The notes beneath the pieces were generated by a model, which searched no databases, was not told the DNA's origin, and worked only from the letters and a program-made list of their open reading frames with translations. Of a stretch of 62,029 nt of DNA, positions 27,607 to 53,430 are shown in pieces. Numbering within the stretch: the stretch's first letter is position 1; every line of letters starts with the position of its first letter. Made by a program: the position numbers and the translations under genes. The stretch covers positions 1-62,029 of the forward strand of contig JADGHL010000013.1 of assembly GCA_019686135.1 (NCBI GenBank). Direction: 5' to 3'. Source of the stretch: Myxococcaceae bacterium. Its GTDB lineage: Bacteria > Myxococcota > Myxococcia > Myxococcales > Myxococcaceae.

Positions 27607-29115
27607 TCAGCGGGCCTGGAACTCAAGCACGAGATCGTCCCCCTGCTGCTTCGCCTGGTACGGCACCGGCTTCGCGAGGGTGATCTCCACCTCCACGTCT
27701 GCGCCGGCCTGGCTCGGGTTCACTCGGAGCACCGGCGTGCCGAAGAAGGACGTGTCGAGGAACAGCGCGTTGTTGTGCGCGCCGATCCGGGTGTTGGCCA
27801 ATGCCACGACGACCGTCCGTTCGTCGGCCTCCCGGATCTCGTACTCCGCCGGCCCGTCGGTCTTGATGGTGACGCGCGCGCCGCGGCCCAGGGGGCGGAA
27901 GCCCACGAACGCGAGCGTGTGACGCTTCCCGCGCCCCGCGGTGGCGCCCTCTGCGCGCCGCGCCTCGGCGGCCTGGCGGCGGCGTTCCTCCTCCGCGCGC
28001 GCCTTCGCCTCGCGCGCGGCCTTCTCCTGCGCCCTTCGCGCCTCCAGCGCCGCGCGCTTCTGTGCCTCCTCCGCCTCGCGCGCCGCCTGAAGCTGCCGCC
28101 GGCGCTCCTCCTTTGCGGCCTGCTTCGCGGCGCGCTCCTCGGCGAGTTGACGCTGACGCTCCTCGGCCGCGGCCTTCTTCGCGGCCTCCTGTGCGCGCCT
28201 CGCCTCCTCCTCCTGGCGCCGCCGCTCCTCGGCCGCCCGCTTCGCCGCCTCCTCCGCGGCGAGCTTCGCCTTCCTCGCCTCCTCCTCGCGCTGCGCCTCC
28301 TCCCGGGCCCGGCGCGCGGCCTCCTCCTGCGCGCGGCGCTCTTCTTCTGCGCGCCGTGCGGCCTTTTCGGCGGCCTTGCGTTGCTTCTCCAGCTCCGCCT
28401 GACGGGCCTCTTCGGCACGCCGTTGGGCCTCCGCCGCCCGCTCGGCTTCCTGACGCGCGGCCTCCTCCGCCTTCTTCCGCTCGGCCTCCTGTTGCCGGCG
28501 CGCCTGTTCCGCCTGCTTCGCCGCCTCCTCCGCCGCGGCCTGCTCTGCGCGGCGCGCCGCCTCAGCCTGTTTTGCGGCCTCCGCCGCCGCGGCCTCCTGT
28601 ACGCGGCGTGCCTGCTCCGCCTGCTGTGCGACCTCCTCCGCCGCGCGCTGTTGCGCGTGATCGGCCTGCGCCGCCTCTTCTTCAGTGCCCTTCTGCGCGC
28701 CCGATTCCGTCGGCCCGGCCTGCGCGACGGGCGGCGGCGCGGTGCCAGCGAGCACCTTCACCGTCACGGTCGTCCCGTGGGTGGTCAGATCCGTCTCCAC
28801 CTCCCGATCGAAGCCCACCAGCACGCGGGCGATCGCCGTGGACGCCGATCCGTAGCTGGCGGTCTTCACGCCGGTGATCACCCCCTGCCCGGGGATCACC
28901 TCCGGCACGCCCGCGAAGACGGCTTCGGAGATGTCGATCACCAGCCGCGGGGGGTCGGTCATCGTGAAGGTGTTGAAGGTGGGCGTGCGGCTCCCGGTGA
29001 TCTCCACCGCGCCGTCCTTCACCTCGACGCGGGTGATCCGGTTGAGCTCGACCTTGTCCTGCGCGAAGGCAGTCGCGGGCAGCACCGCGACGAGCGCAGC
29101 AACGACACGCACCAT
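27607..29115 (-). CDS. AMIN domain protein with a long Ala/Glu/Arg coiled coil
   Basis: A 502-residue exported protein. The ATG at 29115 gives a signal peptide (MVRVVAALVAVLPATAFAQ); upstream in-frame codons add Arg/Ser-rich noise. Residues about 25-120 are an AMIN domain (ITRVEVKDGAVEI, PPRLVIDISEA), a module that binds peptidoglycan or secretin and pilus machinery. Residues about 140-390 are an almost pure Ala/Glu/Arg/Gln/Lys helix, predicted as a long coiled coil or single alpha helix like TolA. A second AMIN-like domain closes the protein (FVGFRPLGRGARVTIKTDGP ... VEVEITLAKPVPY by parts). It is upstream of lptD, so a periplasm-spanning role in envelope assembly is plausible but inferred. 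Confidence 0.8.
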   Translation of the reverse strand: MVRVVAALVAVLPATAFAQDKVELNRITRVEVKDGAVEITGSRTPTFNTFTMTDPPRLVIDISEAVFAGVPEVIPGQGVITGVKTASYGSASTAIARVLVGFDREVETDLTTHGTTVTVKVLAGTAPPPVAQAGPTESGAQKGTEEEAAQADHAQQRAAEEVAQQAEQARRVQEAAAAEAAKQAEAARRAEQAAAEEAAKQAEQARRQQEAERKKAEEAARQEAERAAEAQRRAEEARQAELEKQRKAAEKAARRAEEERRAQEEAARRAREEAQREEEARKAKLAAEEAAKRAAEERRRQEEEARRAQEAAKKAAAEERQRQLAEERAAKQAAKEERRRQLQAAREAEEAQKRAALEARRAQEKAAREAKARAEEERRRQAAEARRAEGATAGRGKRHTLAFVGFRPLGRGARVTIKTDGPAEYEIREADERTVVVALANTRIGAHNNALFLDTSFFGTPVLRVNPSQAGADVEVEITLAKPVPYQAKQQGDDLVLEFQAR

Positions 29116-44988: not shown

Positions 44989-46002
44989 TTGCCGTCCCCG
45001 AACCGTTCGTCGAAGGAGTCGTCTCTCCCGACCGAAAGGCTTCATCCGCTCGCCGAGGAGCTGGATCGCCTTCCGGTGCGGGAGATCGTGTCTTTGCTGC
45101 ACCGGGAGGATCGCGCCGCCGTCGAGGCCGTGCGCCGGGTCCTTCCGTCGGTCACCCGGGTGGCAGAGGCCGCGCGTGACGCGCTGGCCGCCGGGGGCCG
45201 GATCGTCTACGTCGGCGCGGGCACCAGCGGCCGCCTGGGTGCGCTGGACGCTGCCGAATGTCCCCCCACTTTCGGAACCGATCCGGCGCAGGTGGTGGCG
45301 CTGATCGCCGGAGGGCCGAAGGCGCTGATCCACGCGGTGGAGGGCGCGGAGGACGACGCGGCCGCCGGCGCCCGGGAGATCCGCGCGCTGCGCATAGGTT
45401 CGCGCGATCTGGTGATCGGCATCAGCGCCAGCGCCACGACGCCGTACGTGGTGGGTGCGTTGAAGGCCGCGCGTGCGCGCGGGGCGAAGACCGCGCTCAT
45501 CACCGCCGCCGCGCGCCGTGGCCAGGCGAAGACGGTGGATTTTCTCGTCGCGCCGAAGACGGGCGCGGAGCTCGTGGCGGGATCCACGCGGCTCAAGGCC
45601 GGAACCGCGACGAAGCTCGTGCTCAATGCGATCTCCACCGCCGCGATGGTCGCGCTGGGGAAGGTCTACCGCGGGCGGATGGTCGATCTGCAGGTCACCA
45701 ACGCGAAGCTGCGCGCACGCGCCGAGCGGATGGTGGCGGAGCTGACGGGGCTGTCGCTGCGTCGAGCGCGCCGGCTGCTGAAGGCCGCAGGGGACAGTCC
45801 GAAGCTCGCGCTGGCGATGCACTTCACGGGGGCCTCGGCGCCCGTCGCACGCCGGGCCGTCGAACGACACGGGCTCCGCGGACTGGAGCGACTCCGTCAC
45901 GGCCGCGGTACCACCATGGGCGCGGCGGCGGTCCAGAAGACCGTCAGTGCCCTCTCCTCATCGCGCCGCCGCCGCCAACAGCCCGGTCCGGCACGGCGCT
46001 GA
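44989..46002 (+). CDS. murQ: N-acetylmuramic acid 6-phosphate etherase (MurQ)
   Basis: MurQ cleaves the lactyl ether of MurNAc-6-phosphate, giving GlcNAc-6-phosphate and D-lactate in cell-wall recycling. The 337-residue SIS-fold enzyme has the signature YVGAGTSGRLGALDAAECPPTFG by parts (about 74-96) and GISASATTPYV (about 145). It also has the catalytic Glu in EGAEDD (about 115) and ATKLVLNAIST. The TTG at 44989 is the only reasonable start. The last 30 residues are Arg/Gln-rich and unlike the family, and the stop codon falls inside the first unit of the 40-bp repeat array. The gene may therefore have gained a new 3' end. AnmK, which makes its substrate, is encoded at 52270. Confidence 0.93.
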   Translation: MPSPNRSSKESSLPTERLHPLAEELDRLPVREIVSLLHREDRAAVEAVRRVLPSVTRVAEAARDALAAGGRIVYVGAGTSGRLGALDAAECPPTFGTDPAQVVALIAGGPKALIHAVEGAEDDAAAGAREIRALRIGSRDLVIGISASATTPYVVGALKAARARGAKTALITAAARRGQAKTVDFLVAPKTGAELVAGSTRLKAGTATKLVLNAISTAAMVALGKVYRGRMVDLQVTNAKLRARAERMVAELTGLSLRRARRLLKAAGDSPKLALAMHFTGASAPVARRAVERHGLRGLERLRHGRGTTMGAAAVQKTVSALSSSRRRRQQPGPARR

Positions 46003-46705
46003 TCCTCCGCGCATCCAATGTGCTTCGGCCGGGGCCGCGACGAATTCTCTGCATCACCGCTGTCCCCGCCCGGACGCACTGATTCTCAGCGCGTCCGATG
46101 CCCTAGGCTCGGCCCGCGCTGAACCTCAACGTGTCCTCTCCCATGGCCCGGAGCCGCGCTGAGCCGTCCGCGTCTCCGATGTGCGTGCCAGCGCCGCGGC
46201 GATCCCTCCGCGTCTCCGATGTTTCGACCTGGCGCCGTGGCCATGCGCCTCTCCGAGGCTCCGCCGCGGGGCCGCGACGATCCTTTCGTCTGTCCGATGC
46301 CACGGCTCGGCCCGGGGAGATCCCTCCGCGCCTCCGATCACTCCGCCTCCCCGATGCCCCCCGGCTCAGGGCCGCGTCGCTCCTCTCGGCTGTCCGCCCC
46401 CGCGGATCGGCCGCGGAGACCCGTCCGCGCCTCCGATGCTCGACCTGGCGCCGTGGCCATGCGCCTCTCCGATGCTCCGACCCGGGGCCGCGACGATCCT
46501 TTCGTCTGTCCGATGCCACGGCTCGGCCGGGGAGATCCCTCCGCGCCTCCGATCACTCCGCCTCCCCGATGCCCCCGGCTCAGGGCCGCGTCGCTCCTCT
46601 CGGCTGTCCGCCCCCGCGGATCGGCCGCGGAGACCCGTCCGCGCCTCCGATGCCCCACCCGGTGCCGCGGTGATCCTCCGCGTGGCGGATGCCCCGGAGT
46701 GACGC
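45996..46705. repeat. Array of ~17 degenerate ~40-bp units
   Basis: From the murQ stop onwards the sequence is built of units whose starts lie at 45996, 46036, 46075, 46115, 46155, 46195, 46236, 46273, 46314, 46372, 46411, 46452, 46489, 46529, 46587, 46626 and 46666. Spacings are 37-41 bases, except for two of 58. A typical unit begins CGCGNNGATCC, continues TCCGCG and ends with TCCGATG plus a C/G-rich spacer. In several units CGCGG and CCGCG (or CGCGGA and TCCGCG) can pair as a small hairpin. Unit lengths are not multiples of three and frames shift between units, so I regard it as non-coding. Confidence 0.8.
46225..46654. repeat. 216-bp tandem duplication inside the repeat array
   Basis: 46225-46440 is repeated at 46441-46654 with only a few differences (two single C deletions in the second copy and a few substitutions). 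Both copies start at CGACCTGGCGCCGTGGCCAT and end in CCGTCCGCGCCTCCGATG. Each copy holds five to six ~40-bp units, so a block of units was duplicated recently. Confidence 0.85.
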
Positions 46706-46795
46706 ACGAGGGCATGGCGTCGGCACGAGCAGGCAGAACCACACGTTTGCGGGTTGGCGGACCACGACGCCCGATGGTCGGTACACGACCGACGT

Positions 46796-49700
46796 TCAGC
46801 GGAAGCGCTCACCCACGAACGTCGTCGGCCGCTCGTGGAGTCCGCGCGACGAGGCCGCGCTCCGCCGGTCGAACAGGCCCTCGTAGCCGAGGATCCGGAT
46901 CGAGAAGTTGGTCACCCAGTCTCCGTTCCCGTTGGGCAGCCCCGCCGGCGCGCCGATGTCGAGCGGCTTCGCGAAGTGCAGCCGCAGGATGAGCGGCCCG
47001 AGGCCGAAGTTTACGCCCACCACCGGTGAGAGCACGCGCTGGTCCCAGATCTCGCGCACCGACTGCGGCCCCACTCCGCCGAAGTCGATGCCGGCGATCG
47101 CCTCGATGTCGGTGAGGATCAGCACGCGGATGAGCGCGTTGAGCGGGACCTGCAGCTCGGCGGTGCTGAAGAAGAAGTGCCTGCCGACGGTCCAGTGGTC
47201 GAACGCGCCGTAGGGGATTCCCCGGATGGTGTCGAACGTGGAGAGCGCGAACTGCCGCGCCAGCTCGCCGCCGAAGGTGGTGCCGAAGCCGGCGCGCAGG
47301 AAGAAATGGGTGCGGCCGTAGATCGGGAAGTAGCGCTCGGCGTCCAGCCGCAGCGTGCCGAAGGTCTCGTGCTGGAACGGCTGCCAGTCCCCGGTGCCCT
47401 CGAGCAGAAACGAGCTGCCGTCGATCGGCCCGCCCACCGAGTAGCGGATGGTGTCGTAGCCGAAGCGCAGGGTGGCCTCGGTCTGAAAGCGCACGCCGCC
47501 GTTGCGCTTCGACCACTCCGGGAAGAGGTCGATCACGTTGCCGCCCGCGTCCGTGGTGGTGATGGATTCGCGCTGAAAGTCGGTGGCGAAGTAGTTCACC
47601 GCGCCCACGGACACGTCGCCCTGCACGTAGACGAACTGGTCGAACGGGAAGCGGAGGCTGCCCAGCGCGCCGGCGAAGCGTTCGGTCGTCACGAACAGCG
47701 AATCGGGGGCGATGTCGGCGAGCGTGCGATCGAGCCGGAACACCAGCGACGAGAACAACCCGGTGCCCCAGGTCAGCCGGTGCTCCTGGTTGAGGTACAC
47801 GAGGTACCCGTCGGTGAGCTCGAACGAGCCGAGCACGGCGGCGTTCAGCAACAGGGCGTGGTTCCGCAGCTTGTCCGACGCGCTCGCCACGACCTGTCCG
47901 TAGATGCCACCCGTACCACCGCCGATGAACCCGAACGGCGGCCCGAGCTCCCAGTTTCGCGGGGAGAGCGCGCGGTACGGCTGCGCGTCCGCGAGCGCGC
48001 GCTGGGGAATCGTCCGCGGCGGTGCTGACGCCGGCTGAGGCAACGACTCGAGCGTCTCCAGCATCCGCGCGGGGACGAACACCGGCTTGCGGCGCCCGGC
48101 GTGGTGGTACAGCGCCCACAGCCCCTGGTTCGGGCCGGGCGAGAGATTGAAGAGCCCCGTCGTGACGTCGGTGCGGCGGATCACCGTGCCCTCGCGAACC
48201 TCGTGGACATCCGCACGGCCGCGGTCCCAGGCGGTGAAGAGCACGCGGCCGTCGGCGAGCGCCACCGGATCGAGGTGATCGCGCGCCTCGGTGGTGAGGC
48301 GCGCCACCTCCCCAGGATGCGCAGGATCGACGCGAAAGAGGTTGTACCGCCCGTGCGCGGTGGCGTCCGAGTTGTAGACGAGCCCGCGGGGGCCCCAGGT
48401 CACCTGCCGCTCGGAAAAGTCGTCGTGGGTGATGCGGGTGAGCCGGAAGCCGGCGGGATCGGAGGGATCGGGATCGAGGACGTAGACGTCGCGCCGGCCG
48501 GAGGGATCGAAGCCGATCAGCGCCAGGCGCCGTCCGTCCGGCGAGAACGCGGGCGAATACGCGGCGATCAACCCCTTCTTCGCGAGGTCGAACCGCTGGC
48601 GCGCACCCAGCCGGATCCGCACGTCCCACTCCGGCTCGGGCCGCCAACGATCGGGCTGCGGCGGCGAAGTCGGCACGGCGCCGATCGGCGATCCGTTGAC
48701 GCCAGCACCGGGCGCGATCGCCGGGGGTGGAGCCGGCGCCGGCGCAACGCGCTCCGGTTTCGCCGGCGCCTCTTCGTGCGCCTCATGCTCCACCGTCTGC
48801 CAGTAGACGACGTCCGATCCGCCGCTCTCCGCGACCCAGGCCAGCGCACCATTCGAGAGCGCGAAGTTGCGGCCCCACACCGGGTGGAGCGACTCCACCC
48901 CCGGCACGCCATCGATCGCCACGAACGTGTCGTCGGTGGGCGCGCGCGGATCGATCAACGTGAGCCGGCTCGCCCCGGTGTCCAGGTCCAGCCACCTGAG
49001 CGCGATCAGCGTGCCGTCCGGCGACGACGCCAGCGCGTCGACGAAGGCCTCGTCGAATCCCTCCAGCGGCTGGAGCGTCTGCGTGCCCTGCTGGCTGCTC
49101 AGGTACGTGCGATAGGCGCGGCGCTTCAGCCACGCCTCGAAGCGCGCGCTGATCTGCTTCGGATCGTCCCCGGTGAGCCTCGCGAGCAGGCTCGGGAAGT
49201 CGTTCAGCGCCGCCTGGCCGCGGAAGTCGCCCACCAGCCGCGGCGAGTCCTCGAGGATCCGCTGGATCGTCCCCTGCCCGTAGGTCTCCTCGAGGAAGGC
49301 GCACCGGACCTGCCCGACCTTGTAGGTCCACAGCACGCTGAACGGCCGGTCCTCGAAGAAGTCCAGCATCGTGTACCCGAGCCCGAAGTCCGGGTGGATC
49401 ACGATGTCGCGGACCATCATCTCCGCCTCGTCGTCGATGCCGCGCTTCGCGTAGTACTCGGCCAGGCCCTCGACGAACCACAGCGGCATCAGCTGCAGCG
49501 GATCGCCGAACAGCTCCGCGTTTTCGGTGAGCGAGCGGATCTTCTGGATGGTGAACTGGTGCGCCATCTCGTGGGCGCTCACCTCCTCGAAGAGCTCGTG
49601 GTCGCCGAAGTACGGCAGGGTCAGCTTGAGATCGACGGGGCTGGTGACGCCGAGCACGCCCTCCTGCAGCGGGAAGAGGTTCGTCTGCAGGAACTCCTGG

Positions 49701-50383
49701 TACGACGAGTAGAGGATGTACGGGAACGTTTGTGTGGGCACGTAGTTGAACTGCCCGACCAGGTACACGTACGAGCGGACGATGAGCGCCGCCGCGCGTT
49801 CGGCGACCTCGCGCTCGCGCTCGTAGAAGTAGAGGCGGACACCGCCGGCGGTGCGGCCCAAGAGCGTGCGCGGATCGTGCGGCGGCGGCAGCGTGCGCGT
49901 GGCGAACGGAACGTCCGGCGCGACGATGTCGGGAACCCCGCCGTCGGGTACCTGCGGTGTTCCCCCGTCCGCGGTGGCCTCAGGGCCCGCCTCCGGGTTT
50001 CCGATCTCCGCGGCGCCGCTTCTTCCGTCCAGCGTCTCCCCCTGCGCGGCACCGAAGCCCACACCCTGCCCTTCACCCTGCTCCACCTGCGTGGGCGTGC
50101 CGCTCTCGCCCGTGGGCACGTGCGGCGCTTCGGTGGGACCGGCCTGATCCGGCGGGGACACGACGGTCGGGCCCACGCGGCGCTTGAGGTCGTCCGCCTT
50201 CGACGTGTCCGCGTCCGGTCCGACGAGGATGTCCACGTGCTTCCAATTGAAGTCGTAGTAGCGGACCTGGCTCTTGTTGGGCCGGCGCGGGTACACGTAG
50301 ACCTGCGCCTGAACGGAGTCGGCACAGAGCGCTGCCATCAGCACGCCCCAGAGCGCTGCGCCCCTCGCGGTCCGTCGAGTCAT
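46796..50383 (-). CDS. Secreted metallopeptidase with beta-propeller and outer-membrane barrel
   Basis: A 1195-residue multidomain protein with a signal peptide (ending at SVQAQ, about residue 26). Residues 30-170 are a Pro/Gly/Thr-rich, low-complexity region. A gluzincin-type peptidase domain (peptidase MA-like) has zinc site H271, E272, H275 (HEMAHQF) and E305 (WFVEGLAEYY). Residues about 440-790 contain TolB/PD40-like propeller repeats (FSPDGRRLALIGFD, VYVLDPDPSD). From about 850 to the end, alternating aromatic strands (FGYDTIRYSVGG, TLRLDAERYFPIYG, LILRLHFAKPL) look like a surface-antigen/BamA-type beta-barrel. It probably sits in the outer membrane with a protease on one face. The start overlaps the stop of the GH15 gene (ATGA). 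Confidence 0.85.
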   Translation of the reverse strand: MTRRTARGAALWGVLMAALCADSVQAQVYVYPRRPNKSQVRYYDFNWKHVDILVGPDADTSKADDLKRRVGPTVVSPPDQAGPTEAPHVPTGESGTPTQVEQGEGQGVGFGAAQGETLDGRSGAAEIGNPEAGPEATADGGTPQVPDGGVPDIVAPDVPFATRTLPPPHDPRTLLGRTAGGVRLYFYEREREVAERAAALIVRSYVYLVGQFNYVPTQTFPYILYSSYQEFLQTNLFPLQEGVLGVTSPVDLKLTLPYFGDHELFEEVSAHEMAHQFTIQKIRSLTENAELFGDPLQLMPLWFVEGLAEYYAKRGIDDEAEMMVRDIVIHPDFGLGYTMLDFFEDRPFSVLWTYKVGQVRCAFLEETYGQGTIQRILEDSPRLVGDFRGQAALNDFPSLLARLTGDDPKQISARFEAWLKRRAYRTYLSSQQGTQTLQPLEGFDEAFVDALASSPDGTLIALRWLDLDTGASRLTLIDPRAPTDDTFVAIDGVPGVESLHPVWGRNFALSNGALAWVAESGGSDVVYWQTVEHEAHEEAPAKPERVAPAPAPPPAIAPGAGVNGSPIGAVPTSPPQPDRWRPEPEWDVRIRLGARQRFDLAKKGLIAAYSPAFSPDGRRLALIGFDPSGRRDVYVLDPDPSDPAGFRLTRITHDDFSERQVTWGPRGLVYNSDATAHGRYNLFRVDPAHPGEVARLTTEARDHLDPVALADGRVLFTAWDRGRADVHEVREGTVIRRTDVTTGLFNLSPGPNQGLWALYHHAGRRKPVFVPARMLETLESLPQPASAPPRTIPQRALADAQPYRALSPRNWELGPPFGFIGGGTGGIYGQVVASASDKLRNHALLLNAAVLGSFELTDGYLVYLNQEHRLTWGTGLFSSLVFRLDRTLADIAPDSLFVTTERFAGALGSLRFPFDQFVYVQGDVSVGAVNYFATDFQRESITTTDAGGNVIDLFPEWSKRNGGVRFQTEATLRFGYDTIRYSVGGPIDGSSFLLEGTGDWQPFQHETFGTLRLDAERYFPIYGRTHFFLRAGFGTTFGGELARQFALSTFDTIRGIPYGAFDHWTVGRHFFFSTAELQVPLNALIRVLILTDIEAIAGIDFGGVGPQSVREIWDQRVLSPVVGVNFGLGPLILRLHFAKPLDIGAPAGLPNGNGDWVTNFSIRILGYEGLFDRRSAASSRGLHERPTTFVGERFR

Positions 50384-52191
50384 CCGTCGCTGCCTGCCTT
50401 TCGCCGGTGGTGCGCCGGGCCTTCGCCCGCCAGATGCCGCGCCGTATTCAGCAACGCCACGTGGGAAAACGCCTGCGGAAAGTTGCCGAGGAGCCGCCGG
50501 CCCACCGGGTCATACTCCTCCGCCAGAAGCCCCAGGTCGTTGCGGATGGACAGAAGCCGCTCGAACAACCGGCGCGCCTCCTTCTGCCGGCCCTGCAGGA
50601 CCAGGTTGTCCGCGTACCAGAAGCTGCAGGCGATGAAGGCGCCCTCGGTGCCGTCGCCCAGTCCCTCCAGCACGTCGCGGTTCCGGTAGCGGCGCAGAAA
50701 GCCGTGGTCGAGCAGCTCGCGCTCGAGCGCGCGGACGGTGTTCACCATCCGTTCGTCGGTCGCCGGCAGAAAGCCCACGAGCGGGATCATCAGCACCGCC
50801 GCGTCCAGCTCTTTCGATCCATAGGACTGCGTGAACGCCCGCCGGGTGGACGAATAACCGCGGGTGAGCACCTCGTGGCGAAGCTCGTCGCGGAACGCCC
50901 GCCAGCGCTCCACCGGCCCCTCGAGGCCGAACCGCTCGGCGCCGCGGATCGCCCGGTCGAAGGCGACCCACAGCATCACCCGCGAATGTGTGAAGAAGCG
51001 CTCCTTGCCGCGAACCTCCCAAATGCCCTTGTCGCGACGAGCGCCGTTGAGCTCGAGCCAGTCCAACAGCCTGCGCTGCAGCGACCACGCGCTCTCCTCG
51101 GACGGTATCCCCATCACACGCGCCTGGTGCAGGAGGTCCAGCACCTCGCCGTAGGTGTCCAGCTGGAACTGCCGCGCGGCGTCGTTGCCCACCCGCACCG
51201 GCACAGAGCCTTCGAACCCCGGGAGCCACTCGAGCTCATACTCGTGCAGCTGCCGCTCGCCGGCGCAGCCGTACATGATCTGCATCCGGCCCGGATCGCT
51301 CGCCACCGCGCGCAACAGCCAGTCGCGCCACGCGCGCGCCTCCTTCTCGAAGCCGTTCATCATCAGCGCGTAGAGCGTGAACGTGGCATCCCGCAGCCAG
51401 CAGTAGCGGTAGTCCCAGTTGCGCGTCCCGCCCGGCTCCTCCGGCAGCGAGGTCGTGGGCGCCGCCACCACGCCGCCGGTGGGCTCGTAGGTGAGCGCCT
51501 TGAGGACGGCGAGCGACGTCGTCACCGCGTCCTCGTAGATGCCGCGGTAGGTGCAGTGGGCGATCCACCGACGCCACCAGCGTTCGGTGGAGTCCAATTC
51601 GCGCAGCCCCTTCACCGCCGGGGTCATCGGCCGGTTCGAGGGGGACCAGGTCAGCACGAAGGGAATCCGATCGCCCTTCTCCACCGGAAACGTGCCGAGG
51701 ATGTCCGTGCCCGAGCAGTCCAGCTTCACCGGCGCGTAGAGCCCCAAAGAGTCCGGCCCGGCGACCGCCAGCCAGTCCCGCACGTCCGACTGGCGGATCC
51801 ATGGCCGCAGGCGCCCGTAGTCGAAGCGCGGCCGCAGCGTGAACGCGACCTCCACGCGGCCGCTCACCCCCTCCACCACGCGGACCAGATCCGGCACGCC
51901 ATCGCGCGGCGGCATGAAGTCGATCAACCGGACCGTGCCGGTGGACGTGTGGAAGTCGGTCTCGAGGATCAACGTGCCCTTGCGATAGCGGCGCTCCACC
52001 CGGCGCGCGCGGCTCCGTGGAGCGATCCGCCAGCAGCCGTGATCCTCCTCGCCCAGCAACGAGGCGAAGAACGCCGGCGAGTCGAAGCGGGGCGCACACA
52101 TCCACTCGATGGCGCCGTCCCGGCTCACCAGCGCGGCGGTCTGCGTGTCTCCGATGAGCGCGTAGTCCTCGATCCGGCGGCGGGCAGTCAT
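50380..52191 (-). CDS. Glycoside hydrolase family 15 protein (glucoamylase/trehalase-like)
   Basis: A 603-residue GH15 enzyme. It starts at the ATG at 52191 (MTARRRIEDYALIGD), the family's conserved N-terminus (IEDYALIGDTQTAALV). A GTG 24 bases upstream is an alternative. The N-terminal beta-sandwich (1-230) is followed by the (alpha/alpha)6 barrel with RNWDYRYCWLRDATF (about 255, substrate and first acid) and EEYDPVGRRLLGNFPQAFSH near the end (second acid Glu). No signal peptide is visible, so it acts in the cytoplasm on trehalose, maltose or short glucans. It ends in an ATGA overlap with the peptidase gene. Confidence 0.92.
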   Translation of the reverse strand: MTARRRIEDYALIGDTQTAALVSRDGAIEWMCAPRFDSPAFFASLLGEEDHGCWRIAPRSRARRVERRYRKGTLILETDFHTSTGTVRLIDFMPPRDGVPDLVRVVEGVSGRVEVAFTLRPRFDYGRLRPWIRQSDVRDWLAVAGPDSLGLYAPVKLDCSGTDILGTFPVEKGDRIPFVLTWSPSNRPMTPAVKGLRELDSTERWWRRWIAHCTYRGIYEDAVTTSLAVLKALTYEPTGGVVAAPTTSLPEEPGGTRNWDYRYCWLRDATFTLYALMMNGFEKEARAWRDWLLRAVASDPGRMQIMYGCAGERQLHEYELEWLPGFEGSVPVRVGNDAARQFQLDTYGEVLDLLHQARVMGIPSEESAWSLQRRLLDWLELNGARRDKGIWEVRGKERFFTHSRVMLWVAFDRAIRGAERFGLEGPVERWRAFRDELRHEVLTRGYSSTRRAFTQSYGSKELDAAVLMIPLVGFLPATDERMVNTVRALERELLDHGFLRRYRNRDVLEGLGDGTEGAFIACSFWYADNLVLQGRQKEARRLFERLLSIRNDLGLLAEEYDPVGRRLLGNFPQAFSHVALLNTARHLAGEGPAHHRRKAGSDG

Positions 52192-52269
52192 GAAGGCCGG
52201 GATGATGATGGGCACACACCCCAGGCGCGGCGCCCCTTTCGCCGGGGGACTGTCTGATACAAAGCGGGC

Positions 52270-53430
52270 GTGGGCTCACGGCGGCTGCGGCGCGCGATCG
52301 ACAAGGACGAACGGCTCTGCATCGGCCTGCTCTCCGGCACCAGCGTCGACGCGGTGGAGGCGGCCCTGTGCCGGATCCGCGGATCGCGCACCACGGTCTC
52401 GCTGCAGCTCATCGCCCACGTCTCGATGCCGTTCGACCCGGCGCTGCGCGAGCGGGTGCTGGGTGTCCGCACCGTGCCCGAGCTGAGCGCGCTCAACTTC
52501 GAGCTGGGCGCGGTGTTCGCGGACGCGGCGCTCCGGGTGATCGCCCGCGCGGGGCTCACGCCGGAGGCGATCGACGTGATCGGCTCGCACGGGCAGACGG
52601 TGGCGCACCTGCCGCCCGGCTCGGGCGCGGCGGTCCCCTCGACGCTGCAGATCGGCGAGCCGGCCGTCATCGCCGAACGCACCGGCATCCCGGTGGTGGC
52701 GGACTTCCGCGTGCGCGACGTCGCCGCCGGCGGTCAGGGTGCGCCGCTGGTGCCGTATGCAGACTGGGCGCTCTTCCGGAAGACCGGCGCGGTGCGGGCG
52801 CTGCAGAACCTGGGAGGGATCGGAAACGTCAGCGTGGTGGGCGACCGGCTGGAGGACACGATCGCCTTCGACACCGGGCCCGCCAACATGGTGCTGGACG
52901 GGCTCGCTACCCGCGCCACCGGCGGCGTCCTCACCTTCGATCGCGACGGCACGCTCAGCGCGAAGGGGACCGTCCTGCCGGAGCTCCTCGAGGAGCTGCT
53001 CCAGCACCCCTTCTTCGCCCAGCCCCCGCCGAAGAGCAGCGGCCGCGAAGCGTTCGGCGCTGCCTTCGTGGACGCGCTCTGGGACCGTCACGGCGACCGG
53101 CCGTACGACCTCATCGCCACCGCGCTCGCGCTCACCGTGGAAGCGACCGCCCGGGCGTACGAAGCGTGGGTGCTGCCGCGGTTCCCGTCGCTGGAAGGCG
53201 TGTACCTCTCCGGCGGCGGTTCGCGGAACCCGAATCTCGTGCAGGGGCTCACCCGGCGCCTCGCCCCGGTGCCCGTGCGACCGCTCTCCGTGCTCGGGTT
53301 CCCCGAGGAGGCCAAGGAGGCGGCCTGCTTCGCGCTCCTCGCGAGCGAGTGCCTCTCCGGCACCGCCCAGAATGTCCCGAGCGCAACAGGCGCGAGACAT
53401 CCGGTAGTCATGGGTAAGATGGTCCCGTGA
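52270..53430 (+). CDS. anmK: Anhydro-N-acetylmuramic acid kinase (AnmK)
   Basis: AnmK opens and phosphorylates 1,6-anhydroMurNAc to MurNAc-6-phosphate, the substrate of MurQ. The 386-residue ASKHA-fold kinase has the N-terminal phosphate loop GLLSGTSVDAVEAAL (about 18-32), GSHGQTVAHLPP, NLGGIGNVSV, FDTGPANMVLD and the C-terminal LSGGGSRNP. The start is a GTG (52270). The stop overlaps the GTPase start in a GTGA. It heads a chain of six overlapping genes. Confidence 0.92.
   Translation: MGSRRLRRAIDKDERLCIGLLSGTSVDAVEAALCRIRGSRTTVSLQLIAHVSMPFDPALRERVLGVRTVPELSALNFELGAVFADAALRVIARAGLTPEAIDVIGSHGQTVAHLPPGSGAAVPSTLQIGEPAVIAERTGIPVVADFRVRDVAAGGQGAPLVPYADWALFRKTGAVRALQNLGGIGNVSVVGDRLEDTIAFDTGPANMVLDGLATRATGGVLTFDRDGTLSAKGTVLPELLEELLQHPFFAQPPPKSSGREAFGAAFVDALWDRHGDRPYDLIATALALTVEATARAYEAWVLPRFPSLEGVYLSGGGSRNPNLVQGLTRRLAPVPVRPLSVLGFPEEAKEAACFALLASECLSGTAQNVPSATGARHPVVMGKMVP

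Follow-up and report, generated by a model that had tools for sequence, protein, structure and literature searches.

A degenerate tandem array beside murQ in a Myxococcaceae bacterium, probably a minisatellite at the junction of a split gene pair

The murQ locus and its tandem array

The window analysed here is the whole stretch of 62,029 nucleotides from a Myxococcaceae bacterium (contig JADGHL010000013.1). On its plus strand lies murQ (44989–46002), which encodes N-acetylmuramic acid 6-phosphate etherase, a protein with a SIS domain. A gene for a 1195-amino-acid M61-peptidase-like protein (46796–50383, minus strand) converges on murQ, and next to it on the same strand is a gene for a 611-amino-acid protein (50380–52215), read from its sequence as a putative GH15-type glycosidase. 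anmK, which adjoins murQ in most relatives, is found here 6.3 kb away, at 52318–53427 on the plus strand. The gap between the converging murQ and M61-like genes measures 794 bp and is filled by a degenerate tandem array.

The array extends over 45979–46697 on the plus strand, has a GC content of 74%, and consists of 17 units of ~40 bp and two 17-bp half units, with a consensus of about C(C/n)CGGGGCCGCGnnGATCCnTCCGCGnnTCCGATG. The region was cut into units and these were aligned to give a sequence-only profile, R1, which matches 17 units between positions 45988 and 46692, all on the plus strand. A preliminary description had reported about 17 such units abutting murQ, and this count holds. Its spacing of 37–41 bases between units is also correct, but the two wider steps, given as 58 bases, are gaps of 59–60, and both contain the same 17-bp half unit (46340–46356 and its duplicate at 46555–46571). 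The array was said to start after the murQ stop codon. It does adjoin murQ; however, unit 1 begins within the C-terminal codons of the gene and supplies its stop (46000–46002).

Five units and a half unit at 46222–46438 (U7, U8, U9, half unit, U10 and U11) recur as 46439–46652 (U7b–U11b). This is a tandem block duplication of 214–216 bp, and its second copy differs from the first by three 1-base indels and a few substitutions. The ~215-bp duplication is recent. It had been overlooked, and because the block is repeated, the 17 units represent only 12 independent ones, whose mean identity is ~65% (range 50–80%). Second-order duplication of this type can make an array seem more conserved than it truly is. 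With the duplicate removed, 5-mer matches at lags of 36–42 number 47, as opposed to 11.1 (sd 4.4, maximum 30) in 1000 dinucleotide shuffles, i.e. far over chance. A repeat finder had been proposed as a check on the ~40-bp period. TRF reports a second-order period of 214 bp at 46193–46667 (score 843, 94% matches), and the 40-bp period is absent from its output for the array because the units are too diverged; it is the excess of matches at lags 36–42 over shuffles that bears this period out.

Gene order and distribution of the array among relatives

anmK comes next after murQ, on the same strand, at 10 loci from the same family (L096, L097, L098, L102, L103 and L107–L111) and at one from the same order (L105). 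The distance between the two genes, taken from tblastn coordinates, is mostly about 50–350 bases, and about 0.8 kb in L107. Among the relatives examined, it is only here (46002–52318) that murQ and anmK are separated by an array, an M61-like gene and the 611-amino-acid GH15-like gene. The M61-like gene of relatives sits elsewhere, with no homologue of murQ, anmK or the 611-amino-acid gene in flanks of up to 1.5 kb. Since murQ and anmK are adjacent in relatives, and the M61-like gene is elsewhere, a conserved pair has been split in this lineage. The array occupies the left, convergent junction, on the murQ side of the split.

A search of the organism's own genome (5.5 Mb, 97% complete) with R1 places all 17 units on a single contig (C21), the other matches being isolated and weak. 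A strict IUPAC pattern finds a few single sites beyond the array in this genome, and a blastn match on another contig (C24) has no repeats around it. The BLASTN comparison suggested in the preliminary description turned up no relative of the array: the whole-array query gave only short scattered matches in 60 relatives, as expected by chance in GC-rich genomes. R1 detected no clustered copy in 145 genomes of the order, where matches at E values up to 0.01 are single sites; the best of them (E down to 7.6e-5) have no neighbouring units and are read as chance. A set of 147 genomes of the class, largely overlapping that of the order, added nothing further. Array units were not found beside the murQ or M61 genes of relatives and have no match in phages or plasmids. 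One 20-base string of the array gave no match in IMG/VR, and a literature search produced nothing relevant to the array. Among the genomes searched, the array is private to one locus. The relatives compared belong to other genera and give no measure of how old the array is or how fast it turns over.

Reading frames, RNA structure and constraint

The statement that no ORF crosses the array does not hold literally, as open frames of 173–257 amino acids span most of it. Pfam gives no match for the frames scanned through the array (two long ones on the plus strand and one on the minus strand), and the repeat lags (214, 215, 216, 40 and 98) ignore frame, with residues modulo 3 of 0.34/0.39/0.27. 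Unit and duplication lengths do not keep to multiples of 3 along an open frame, as those of a protein-coding repeat do. A coding repeat is ruled out by the frame-breaking lags and by the lack of a Pfam domain in the scanned frames. Repeats internal to genes keep frame, whereas the murQ-side array does not. This was seen in a control sample of 862 kb of the same genome (the window and 40 stretches of 20 kb, about 16% of the total), which was scanned with TRF: in 11 of the 12 other long arrays examined, 89–100% of lags are multiples of 3 and the frame is uninterrupted. The exception, L168:19318–19756, has lags of 115 and 117, yet its frame is fully open. A genome rich in minisatellites was also considered; the other long arrays in the sample are nearly all in frame and look coding.

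Several of these other repeats deserve mention in their own right. Four long GC-rich tandem arrays (L185:10773–11593, L186:14821–15512, L174:12838–14156 and L168:3128–3857) have periods that are multiples of 3 (54–126 bp) and are probably repeats inside genes. The L185 array is open in three plus-strand frames and one minus-strand frame, and therefore its coding strand is uncertain. The units at L168:19318–19756 may resemble a tail-fibre-type repeat, and a frameshift pair may be present there. The window itself contains a repeat with a 54-bp period at 28467–28676 (TRF score 193), which probably lies within a gene.

A structured RNA was among the possibilities raised at the outset, and would take the form of an array of hairpins or a cis-acting RNA of repeated stem-loops. 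Pairing of CGCGGA with TCCGCG is indeed possible in some units. Unit 3 (46063–46100, plus strand), the sole unit with a strong palindrome (GGACGCACTGATTCTCAGCGCGTCC, nearly perfect), has a fold z of −5.6 on the plus strand. The pairing is not accompanied by covariation, however: RNAalifold predicts three pairs in the units, none with both sides changed, and in the best pairing register of the 12 hand-aligned units, 62% of cells are paired vs 60% with 3′ arms dealt randomly (p 0.16). Compensatory base changes at paired positions do not appear across the 12 independent units. The sum-of-units fold z is −1.9 on the plus strand, a value driven largely by unit 3, and −1.5 on the minus strand, and Rfam shows no match to the array at gathering score or at E up to 1. 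The fold z of the whole array, −3.9 with 20 shuffles, favours structure, although repetition in tandem could by itself account for part of this value. A conserved hairpin is not supported, and a hairpin RNA, rejected for the lack of covariation among units, is very improbable. Much the same has to be said of a protein-binding array, whether iteron-like or for a nucleoid protein, which had also been put forward and which we consider highly unlikely. The regular spacing of ~40 bp corresponds to about four helical turns, and a core of GCCGCGnnGATCC...TCCGATG recurs; however, this spacing is broken by the 17-bp half units and by 1-base indels, further copies were found neither in the rest of the genome nor at the murQ loci of relatives, no replication or partition gene was noticed adjoining the array, and positive evidence of binding did not emerge. 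The unit core is conserved marginally at best. In neutral simulations (star-like, from a 40-bp ancestor and at similar identity, and simple in having no tree and no correlated duplication), the observed variance in column conservation was reached in 5–28% of runs; strongly conserved columns (>=90%) number 14 of 39, on the upper side of simulations at similar identity. Judged against these simulations, column conservation appears near-neutral, with little sign of constraint. Weak constraint on the unit core may be present, the count of conserved columns being on the high side and the simulation simple.

Repeated RNA segments with C in excess of G load Rho, and the array sits between converging genes. 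It might therefore be a zone of Rho-dependent termination or insulation, where the C-rich, G-poor murQ transcript would load Rho and be stopped from reading into the opposing gene. The plus-strand GC skew is about −0.2 across the array, with C above G throughout, and no intrinsic terminator was found in the array. Most 78-nt windows have a C/G ratio of 1.2–1.8, and one, with the peak value of 2.28, exceeds the background 99th percentile of 1.89. However, for most of the array the ratio does not depart from ordinary background, strong folding is predicted for the RNA and would disfavour Rho loading, and no such array follows murQ in relatives. We consider a Rho zone unlikely. It is quite improbable that a lineage-specific array serves converging genes, newly joined by rearrangement, as a Rho-dependent terminator or collision barrier, with slippage having supplied the new termination zone.

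Origin of the array and comparison with known repeats

The array is probably a lineage-specific, non-coding minisatellite that grew at a rearrangement junction through slippage or unequal recombination. Of the identities first offered, it is the fast-evolving minisatellite that agrees with the data. This reading is based on the single locus, the 214–216-bp duplication with its 1-base indels, the frame-free lags, the near-neutral columns and the lack of covariation, as well as on absence from relatives, in which murQ and anmK are still neighbours. The 14 of 39 conserved columns and the whole-array fold z of −3.9 are points against it. Minisatellites have units of roughly 10–100 bp arranged head to tail, as the ~40-bp units are here above chance, and they grow by tandem duplication of units or blocks, here the 215-bp block.

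The following sequence of events can be envisaged. A two-gene block on the minus strand would have come between murQ and anmK and, with or after this rearrangement, a GC-rich stretch of ~40 bp where murQ met the block may have been copied in tandem via replication slippage or unequal recombination. Unit copies would have decayed between bursts of block duplication, the latest of which would be the renewed duplication of five units and a half unit (~215 bp). Nothing would constrain length or frame in the 794-bp convergent gap, and the array, presumably devoid of function, would be free to grow and drift. It has the look of a commonplace, fast-changing minisatellite at the site of an old rearrangement rather than of a novel RNA or regulatory system. 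The observation in the preliminary description is confirmed and its interpretation is partly supported. The locus serves chiefly as a caution that a minisatellite in decay can present as a conspicuous array with regular spacing and partial palindromes. It also offers one detailed example of a minisatellite occupying the junction where a conserved gene pair, murQ-anmK, has been broken.

CRISPR arrays share with the murQ-side array regularly spaced repeats in a non-coding region, but they have near-identical repeats with unique spacers between them. Here, as was correctly pointed out before, there are no unique spacers, and whole ~40-bp units diverge together. REP/BIME elements, which are mobilized by RAYT, are closer in several respects, i.e. 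they have short, partly palindromic, GC-rich units that are found in tandem, extragenically and near gene ends. REP/BIMEs, however, are dispersed in many copies in a genome, whereas this array is at one locus and its palindrome is not kept across units. In addition, a search for Y1_Tnp/RAYT gave no PF01797 match in the genome, while control genomes matched. REP/BIME is ruled out by the single locus and the absence of a RAYT gene. At about 65% identity, the array units diverge more from one another than those of typical VNTR loci do, and TRF misses their basic period. Nevertheless, the array resembles bacterial minisatellites/VNTRs in its head-to-tail units of ~40 bp, its block duplications and indels, and its presence at a single intergenic locus not common to relatives.
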